Positions 44,299-49,424 of a stretch of 64,000 bases of DNA are shown here, in pieces. Source of the DNA: Oceaniglobus ichthyenteri. GTDB taxonomy: Bacteria > Pseudomonadota > Alphaproteobacteria > Rhodobacterales > Rhodobacteraceae. Numbering within the stretch: the first letter of the stretch is position 1; every line of letters begins with the position of its first letter. The notes under the pieces are model-generated. The model made no database searches, was not told the DNA's origin, and worked only from the letters and a program-made list of their open reading frames with translations. The DNA is taken from positions 186,001-250,000 of the forward strand of contig NZ_QAGK01000001.1 of assembly GCF_003057885.1 (NCBI RefSeq), in the 5' to 3' direction. Made by a program: the position numbers and the translations under genes.

Positions 44299-44748
44299 AT
44301 GTCTGACAGCGATATGATCAAGCTTTATTCCGGGCGAATCCTGGCTCTGGCGGCGGATATGCCATTCACCGCTCCGCTTGCCAATCCCGATGCCACGGCA
44401 CGGCGGCGCTCGCCTTTGTGCGGATCGACCGTGACGGTCTCTTTAACCCTCAGCGATGGTAAAATCGCGCAGTATGCCCAAGAGGTGAAAGCCTGCGCAC
44501 TGGGCCAAGCGGCGGCATCGGTTGTCGGGGCCAACATCATCGGCCGGACCCGCGCCGAAGTTGAAATGGCGCGCGATCAACTGAAAGCCATGCTGAAATC
44601 GGACGGCCCCGTGCCTGACGCGCCCTTTGACGGCCTTGGCGTGCTGCAACCTGCGAAAGATTACAAGAACCGCCATGCATCAATCATGCTGTCGCTGGAG
44701 GCAACGGTTGAAGCCCTTGAAAGTGCTGCGCAATCCGCTTGCGCCTGA
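44299..44748 (+). CDS. IscU/NifU-N-like iron-sulfur scaffold family protein with reduced ligand set
   Basis: 149 residues of the NifU N-terminal fold. PLCGSTVTVSL (Cys41) and VKACALGQAAASVVG (Cys66) match the first two cluster-binding cysteines of IscU. The third IscU Cys, in an HCS motif, is Ala127 here (NRHASIML), and the conserved Asp after the first Cys is Ser. It therefore probably does not bind a cluster as IscU does and may be a partner or regulator, or use Cys148. Conserved in related genomes as an annotated scaffold protein, to my knowledge. No isc or suf genes nearby; divergent from hisI. Confidence 0.75.
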   Translation: MSDSDMIKLYSGRILALAADMPFTAPLANPDATARRRSPLCGSTVTVSLTLSDGKIAQYAQEVKACALGQAAASVVGANIIGRTRAEVEMARDQLKAMLKSDGPVPDAPFDGLGVLQPAKDYKNRHASIMLSLEATVEALESAAQSACA

Positions 44749-44755
44749 GGCATCT

Positions 44756-44793
44756 AAAAAAACGCCGCGCATTCCTGTGGGGAATGGCGGCGC
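44756..44793 (-). terminator. Rho-independent terminator of the 38-residue membrane protein gene
   Basis: On the minus strand a GC-rich hairpin (CGCCGCCATTCC pairing with GGAATG-CGCGGCG, one bulge, 5-7 base loop) runs directly into seven T residues (44762-44756). It lies about 140 bases after the stop of the small gene at 44935 and faces that gene. For the convergent plus-strand scaffold gene it lacks a T-run. Confidence 0.82.
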
Positions 44794-44934
44794 AAGTGGC
44801 AAATCCGATCAACGCACCCGTTGATCCGGCGTTAACCCGGATCAGGGACAGTGAGGCAGTGCATCTGAGTTGGGGACAGGGATGCATTTGCGGGTGCAAC
44901 GGATTGCAGGGCAGTCAAGTAACCTGAGGCAACA

Positions 44935-45051
44935 TCACAGACCGGGAAGGTAAAGCCCGACCATCAGCAAAACAACCAAGGCAAAGGCACCTGCGAAATC
45001 CTGAAGCAACGTATCAGTGCGGCTAAAAACCGTTTTGATCTGTTTCAGCAT
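44935..45051 (-). CDS. Small single-span membrane protein, predicted SOS-induced
   Basis: 38 residues, too short for ordinary gene calling. The N-terminus MLKQIKTVFSRTDTLLQD is basic and amphipathic; residues 20-36 are hydrophobic (AGAFALVVLLMVGLYLPG), so it should insert with its N-terminus inside. GAAAGGG lies 7 bases before ATG 45051. Its only upstream sequence contains overlapping LexA boxes, and it has its own terminator downstream, so it looks like a real monocistronic gene downstream of recG. By size, topology and control it resembles SOS division inhibitors such as Caulobacter SidA or toxins such as TisB, but I see no sequence similarity and assign no function. Confidence 0.65.
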   Translation of the reverse strand: MLKQIKTVFSRTDTLLQDFAGAFALVVLLMVGLYLPGL

Positions 45052-45107
45052 CGTAAGCCCTTTCTTTGTATGCTCTGCTTTGTTGCCTCTTTGTTCCATA
45101 TCAAGTC

Positions 45108-45143
45108 GAACCTGTAAAGAACTTTATGAGAACATATGCGAAC
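45108..45143 (-). promoter_or_regulatory. Overlapping LexA (SOS) boxes
   Basis: GAAC occurs at 45108, 45119, 45130 and 45140. The first three are spaced exactly as GAAC-N7-GAAC-N7-GAAC, giving two overlapping perfect copies of the alphaproteobacterial LexA site (GTTC-N7-GTTC on the minus strand); the fourth follows after N6. The array spans 57-92 bases before the start of the 38-residue gene and ends seven bases short of the recG stop codon. No other gene start lies within reach on either strand. Confidence 0.75.
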
Positions 45144-45150
45144 AAAATGC

Positions 45151-49424
<4,274 letters not shown>

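Follow-up and report, generated by a model that had tools for sequence, protein, structure and literature searches.

Which gene lies behind the GTTC repeats found just downstream of recG, what switches it on, and what might its product do in the cell? These questions are raised by a locus in the window, by which we mean the whole 64,000-nucleotide stretch of the Oceaniglobus ichthyenteri genome that was analysed. The features of the locus, in the order of transcription, are the following.

45151 to 47265, minus strand: recG, a listed frame, the same-strand upstream neighbour of the micropeptide gene
45140 to 45143, minus strand: extra GTTC half-site, N6 upstream of operator A (in 111 of 120 loci)
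45119 to 45133, minus strand: LexA-like operator A, GTTCTCATAAAGTTC (GTTC-N7-GTTC), with conserved half-sites and a LexA-matrix score of 16.7
45113 to 45118, minus strand: TTTACA, probable -35 immediately 3' of operator A, matching a conserved TTTAC
45108 to 45122, minus strand: second GTTC-N7-GTTC box of the preliminary description, an exact match, rare in relatives (score 7.5)
45082 to 45096, minus strand: LexA-like operator B, GAACAAAGAGGCAAC (GAAC-N7-CAAC), with CAAC in 120 of 120 aligned loci and a score of 13.0
45058 to 45066, minus strand: AAGAAAGGG, probable ribosome binding site, from the sequence
44935 to 45051, minus strand: gene of the 38-residue predicted membrane micropeptide, stop included (frame, family, selection, hydropathy)
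44794 to 44934, minus strand: structured 3'UTR RNA, predicted from the window's fold and the covariation in relatives
within 44896-44910 and 44798-44810, minus strand: arms of the closing stem of this RNA (predicted fold)
44861 to 44885, minus strand: CUGUCCC hairpin of this RNA (predicted fold)
44756 to 44793, minus strand: GC-rich intrinsic terminator with T7, whose stem covaries across 54 aligned loci

The preliminary description of this locus had placed here a LexA-repressed gene for a 38-residue membrane peptide, and its basic readings held: GAAC stands at 45108, 45119, 45130 and 45140 with both GAAC-N7-GAAC matches exact, that is, as minus-strand GTTC half-sites at 45143-45140, 45133-45130, 45122-45119 and 45111-45108, and the 38-codon frame was found on the minus strand at 45051-44935. 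The ribosome binding site AAGAAAGGG does lie upstream of the frame but is only modest, not good as had been stated; the terminator with T7 exists as well (44793-44756) but 141 bases past the stop codon, outside the interval then described. Operator B (45082-45096) and the structured 3' RNA were absent from that description. A longer in-frame start at 45099, giving 54 residues, was rejected, the matching upstream start motif lying in differing frames in relatives.

With the single peptide as query, matches at E≤0.1 came from 141 genomes out of 198 in the family, nearly one per genus. In an order-wide sample a profile built from 30 members (E≤0.01) matched 261 of 292 genomes, belonging to 107 of the 112 genera; the 281 rows listed all came from the window's own family, with one profile match per listed genome except in G117, G275 and G359. 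The class-wide profile search of 289 genomes returned six matches, four of them in the same family and two marginal (E 0.008-0.009) inside open frames of 237 and 330 residues, and thus detected no convincing relative outside the family. In a search of named genomes 294 relatives were confirmed and 80 kept, including Ruegeria, Phaeobacter, Sulfitobacter, Tritonibacter, Cognatishimia and uncultured Rhodobacteraceae, with two named Alphaproteobacteria only; because of these named relatives the family is taken as Rhodobacteraceae.

The C-terminus of recG precedes the peptide frame, on the same strand, at every one of the 58 loci checked, a set that includes a few genomes twice; the gap between the two is 96-623 bases (median 115, 54 loci measured), and the neighbours other than recG vary. 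When 16 of the 31 profile-negative genomes were examined downstream of recG, 14 were found to keep the promoter and a diverged peptide; with seven weak-match genomes added, both were present in 21 of 23, and in L234 and L250 neither promoter nor peptide was found downstream of recG. Ten further recG loci, among them the already seen L237, gave the cassette in eight cases, and no cassette in G008 (82% complete) and G167. These comparisons describe a micropeptide gene spread through many Rhodobacteraceae and predicted to be induced by DNA damage.

Across 121 loci the peptide is 38-42 residues long with a single predicted membrane span. Its best 17-residue hydropathy is 2.49 in the window and 2.33 in the median of the 121, and the first 14 residues are net positive in 111 of them, so that the basic N-terminus and single hydrophobic span already proposed for the window are predicted for the relatives too. 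The common plan is a basic N-terminus, an acidic-x-x-glycine motif opening the span and a short C-terminus ending near LP. In alignment A1, whose 30 sequences were picked by similarity alone, the columns holding T, D, G, L and P do not vary; the presence of D-x-x-G and LP in all 121 is by construction, because the later finder demanded both motifs. Diverged peptides retain an acidic residue followed by a small residue two residues on, and at locus L262 (genome G045) the promoter is accompanied by a 47-residue variant whose N-terminus is longer.

Substitutions were counted in the same frame. pN was lower than pS in 279 of 279 pairs and in 34 of 34 disjoint pairs, with a pooled pN/pS of 0.196 and a ratio of disjoint means of 0.155, and the changes at codon positions 1, 2 and 3 numbered 138, 65 and 403. 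By this measure the frame is evolving as protein-coding. A pN/pS far from one, together with the keeping of the frame and of GTTC-N7-GTTC beside recG in relatives, is what the preliminary description had proposed to look for, and its central claim, a LexA-repressed membrane micropeptide beside recG, agrees with the conservation of frame, synteny, promoter and purifying selection alike.

To judge from its conserved acidic-x-x-G and LP motifs, the peptide may have a defined interface, and many small single-span proteins serve as subunits or regulators. It is therefore possible, if doubtful, that the peptide regulates during the SOS response a membrane protein that has nothing to do with division, such as a transporter, a protease or a respiratory or cell-envelope complex. 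Against this reading, the locus offers no operon partner that would name such a target, recG being the neighbour in 58 of 58 loci and the others varying.

The promoter was compared in a set of 141 loci, reduced to 121 after four were missed by the finder (L023, L142, L143, L148) and duplicates were removed. GTTC-N7-GTTC was present in 119 of the 121, GTTC-N6-GTTC-N7-GTTC in 113 and GAAC-N7-[C/G]AAC in 120. For an alignment by offset, anchored on the last element, 120 rows were used, the window included and L025 dropped; the GAAC of operator B is invariant there by construction, because of the anchoring, and its second half reads CAAC in 120 of 120. GTTC occupies offsets -38, -27 and -48 from the downstream element in 116, 118 and 111 loci, the first two being the half-sites of operator A and the third the extra half-site seen in the window at 45140-45143. 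The consensus can be written TTTGTTC-rCAAAT-GTTC-tCaAAAA-GTTC-TTTAC-(15 bases)-TGAGAACAAA-nnnn-CAACAAA, from which the window departs by a spacing one base shorter. The distance from promoter to start codon is variable (68 to 107) and the -10 is poor. No promoter was detected on either strand in a sigma-70 scan of 44700-45250, a simple scan that also missed the T7 terminator. The promoter is a rigid composite of two LexA-like operators, one on each side of a probable -35.

Further cassettes after recG, 28 without counting the window's own, carry an exact GTTC-N7-GTTC in all cases and a GAAC element 36-39 bases downstream in 27, L240 being the one without the pattern. In the divergent L232 operator B is replaced by GAAC-N7-GAAC, L252 has an additional GAAC preceding the GAAC element, and the -35 is TTGAC in the divergent loci L232, L240, L253, L266 and L268. 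At operator A the second GTTC is mostly preceded by A, the matrix from recA and lexA boxes preferring T, and a T is found there in L238, L240, L251-L253 and L266. The box at 45108-45122 had been taken for an operator in the preliminary description; it scores poorly (7.5), and its 45108 half-site is outside the consensus. Among the 121 promoters the window alone has another N7 box overlapping on that side, as does L237 among the 28 further cassettes, and L051 has one on the opposite side. Overlapping boxes are thus rare, and the tight repression that had been read from them is not the general arrangement.

By number the motif is close to chance: 1.84 matches to GTTC-N7-GTTC are expected in the window, and two or more turn up in 54 of 100 shuffles; the whole genome holds 105 sites versus 93 for a reversed-pattern control. 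The count being uninformative alone, the case rests on the comparison, and conservation at fixed offsets lifts the motif above chance. A LexA matrix was trained on 34 recA and lexA boxes of relatives and on nothing else. On the 121 promoters it gave scores of 11.4-18.6 (median 15.4), and on 605 control windows from the same loci 4.5 (95%), 8.7 (99%) and 13.0 (maximum), so that every promoter scored above 95% of control windows. The best match was the downstream element in 69 promoters and the upstream element at its usual spacing in 48. In the window operator A scored 16.7 and operator B 13.0; boxes at the genome's own uvrD-, uvrA- and umuD-like genes, named by eye, scored 10.4, 15.4 and 12.1. 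LexA control of the micropeptide promoter is, on this comparison, very likely. What counts against it is that operator B ends in CAAC, never in GAAC, throughout the main set; given this and the A-preceded GTTC of operator A, another regulator could share the promoter.

A stronger version of the latter idea is that a regulator other than LexA, also recognising GTTC repeats spaced by 11 bp, mainly controls the promoter, which would be compatible with any of the functions considered here. The composite element does exceed in length and rigidity what a LexA site requires (38-bp spacing, invariant CAAC), and the cassette is retained in some genomes without a lexA match. However, the independently trained LexA matrix scores high on all 121 promoters, and the GAAC-N7-GAAC at operator B of L232 and the T-preceded GTTC of L238, L240, L251-L253 and L266 are LexA-like variants of the same elements, which makes this version very improbable. 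A DriD-type activator, considered from PMC12340889, was also set aside, the promoter elements scoring as LexA boxes. A lexA match was obtained in 194 of 199 genomes. G069, G158 and G160, all fragmented assemblies, have no lexA match and keep the cassette, as does G150 with a weak best lexA match, whereas G167 and G008 (82% complete) have neither lexA match nor cassette; the pattern of co-loss is mixed, and the cassettes kept without a lexA match count against LexA control.

Downstream of the stop codon, the stretch up to the terminator is conserved in relatives. Folded without the terminator and compared with shuffles, the relatives' 3'UTRs gave a median z of -2.65 with 73 of 103 below -2, against -0.60 and 14 of 103 for recG coding controls, 7 of 110 stretches having been excluded for length. 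In a MAFFT alignment of 54 3'UTRs covariation backed the terminator alone, and close subgroups and a covariance model were therefore used. The model, from 20 sequences of one subgroup, matched 54 of 90 sources at E≤0.1, 53 of these being outside the model; all 54 matches lie on the peptide's strand 0-79 bases past the stop (median 10), with no other match in the 466 kb searched. All 18 modelled pairs show two-sided changes over the 54 matches, with 120 doubly changed cells versus 22.6 ± 5.8 in shuffles and 11-29 when slid, and 92.3% of cells pair, in an alignment that was fitted to the covariance model and is hence biased in its favour. The model matched none of 23 divergent recG loci and misses the window copy even with filters off (best score 7.1 bits, opposite strand), and Rfam gave no match at E≤5 for 44600-45300 of the window. 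The window copy folds with a z of -4.03 for 44755-44934, terminator included, into a closing stem GCAAUCCG/CGGAUUUGC and a GCAUC-CCUGUCCCCAACUCA-GAUGC hairpin, and we read this fold as having the same plan as the relatives' RNA.

The motif CTG[CT]C (CUGYC in RNA) recurs in these transcripts, at 4.04 copies per 3'UTR versus 0.84 in shuffles for the 115 3'UTRs left after six of the 121 without a recognised terminator were removed, and is 66% unpaired in the predicted folds versus 41% of all positions; 26 divergent UTRs have 1-4 copies. The RNA may be an SOS-induced, 3'UTR-derived regulatory RNA or, equally possibly, an element setting the stability or translation of its own mRNA. A precedent for the former is DinR of Klebsiella, a small RNA from the 3' end of the LexA-controlled dinI which represses ftsZ (PMC10907235, in extract). 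Here too the 3' end of an SOS-type mRNA could be released as a regulatory RNA, from a different host gene in a different organism. One may go further and suppose that the RNA itself is the principal product, with the peptide gene as its carrier; it would then be an SOS small RNA repressing mRNAs through CUGCCUG/CUGUCCC loops, and this could hold alongside the other functions discussed. The covarying multi-branched fold and the enriched, mostly unpaired CTG[CT]C favour this idea, but strong purifying selection acts on the peptide, which is kept even where the RNA looks reduced or cannot be seen by eye (L262) and where the model gives no match (23 divergent loci), and we regard the idea as quite improbable.

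As to the peptide, no convincing relative was found in Pfam and NCBIfam (best E 0.066, in 1 of 30 members) or in PDB (best E 0.51), and none of 76 pattern matches in viral contigs was a relative by tblastn; the best PHROGs match (E 0.0029, 1 of 30 members, a nameless family) was not counted as one. Our literature search, which most subscription journals lay beyond, recognised no description of the peptide or the RNA, and the portion available of an in silico list of LexA targets in Dinoroseobacter shibae names no gene after recG (PMC6473078).

SidA of Caulobacter, of 29 residues, is an SOS division inhibitor acting at FtsW (PMC4211646, in extract), and deletion of sidA relieves the filamentation of a lexA-null strain (PMC12700426, in extract). 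The present product shares with SidA a very small size, a predicted place in the inner membrane, LexA-type control and the bacterial class, and differs in its 38-42 residues and conserved 3' RNA, the comparison being one of descriptions. DidA, also of Caulobacter (71 residues, FtsN, SOS-independent), is likewise a small single-span DNA-damage protein, induced by DriD and not by LexA (PMC4211646, in extract); unlike it, the promoter here scores as LexA-controlled and its LexA-like operators are conserved. Because SidA, an alphaproteobacterial SOS peptide of like build, stops division at FtsW and its deletion relieves filamentation, our best guess, held at about an even chance, is a LexA-repressed SOS transcript whose peptide works like SidA as a brake on the divisome. 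In this scheme RecA-stimulated cleavage of LexA upon damage would switch on the transcript, the peptide would enter the inner membrane N-in/C-out, and its conserved span residues would bind and restrain one membrane partner, most probably of the late divisome (FtsW/FtsI/FtsN), so that division would be delayed until repair is complete. Counting against it, no homology of the peptide to any division inhibitor was detected.

A membrane toxin would be another outcome of an SOS-type single-span peptide. TisB/IstR of E. coli is a LexA-controlled type I toxin system. DinQ, also of E. coli, has 27 residues, is LexA-controlled and depolarises the membrane (PMC3567139, in extract). The peptide here resembles TisB and DinQ in its single span and SOS-type control, and its promoter resembles that of DinQ in having two operators near the core promoter (as far as described in the same extract, PMC3567139); unlike in TisB/IstR and DinQ/AgrB, specific span residues are conserved and a simple scan shows no antisense promoter. 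A toxin of this kind would lower the proton motive force and slow growth or favour persistence, its translation being restrained by an antisense RNA or by the structured 3'UTR, as a type I toxin-antitoxin system. The comparable size, the overlap of the DinQ operators with the DinQ promoter (PMC3567139, in extract) and the strongly structured mRNA end in relatives would suit it. We nevertheless think it unlikely, since the invariance of T, D, G, L and P in 30 sequences and a span lacking any repeated charged face suggest a specific partner; no antisense promoter came out of the sigma-70 scan, a weak test. Moreover, the gene is widely conserved, mostly in single copy and at one site, which to our knowledge most type I systems are not. 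We therefore place the divisome brake ahead of another membrane target, and that ahead of a depolarising toxin. The action on division or membrane energy state that had been proposed from the window is plausible.

Tentatively, the two parts of the locus may be joined: one LexA-controlled transcript would give two products, a membrane micropeptide blocking the divisome and a processed multi-loop 3' RNA repressing further mRNAs through its CUGCCUG/CUGUCCC loops. If so, it would constitute a two-output SOS checkpoint across Rhodobacteraceae, filling the role of SulA or SidA. An SOS-controlled single-span micropeptide is in itself a known kind; what would be new, as judged from the libraries and papers searched, is the family, the two-operator promoter and the attached RNA. 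We know of no damage checkpoint described in Rhodobacteraceae, and an SOS-type gene in 107 of 112 sampled genera of this abundant family is a candidate for a family-wide one. The gene, small and usually single-copy, is directly testable in Ruegeria, Phaeobacter and Sulfitobacter, and the linked conserved RNA makes a case for the coupling of micropeptide and RNA in the SOS response.

Some LexA-related observations were made beside the cassette. Several recA promoters of the family (e.g. L085, L093, L094) have, upstream of their GAAC-N7-GAAC, a further LexA-like box in degenerate form (TGTTCTC...TTTGGTC), an arrangement similar to the two operators of the micropeptide promoter. Two genomes of the family, G029 and G059, seem to be without recG, their only matches being at about E 1e-107, as for other helicases; lexA was not matched in G029 and was matched weakly in G059. 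In the window's own genome, LexA-type boxes were seen at three other places: GTTCATAATATGTTC at L216 1517-1531 (C33), just ahead of an unnamed 413-residue frame (ORF 1560-2801); GTTCATTTTTTGTTC at L214 1507-1521 (C23), at the start of a gene which we take to resemble a ligase-associated phosphoesterase/helicase pair; and GAACAAAATAAGAAC at L230 1162-1176 (C8), at the promoter of a umuDC-like pair, named by eye, the first gene of which is a partial LexA-family match.
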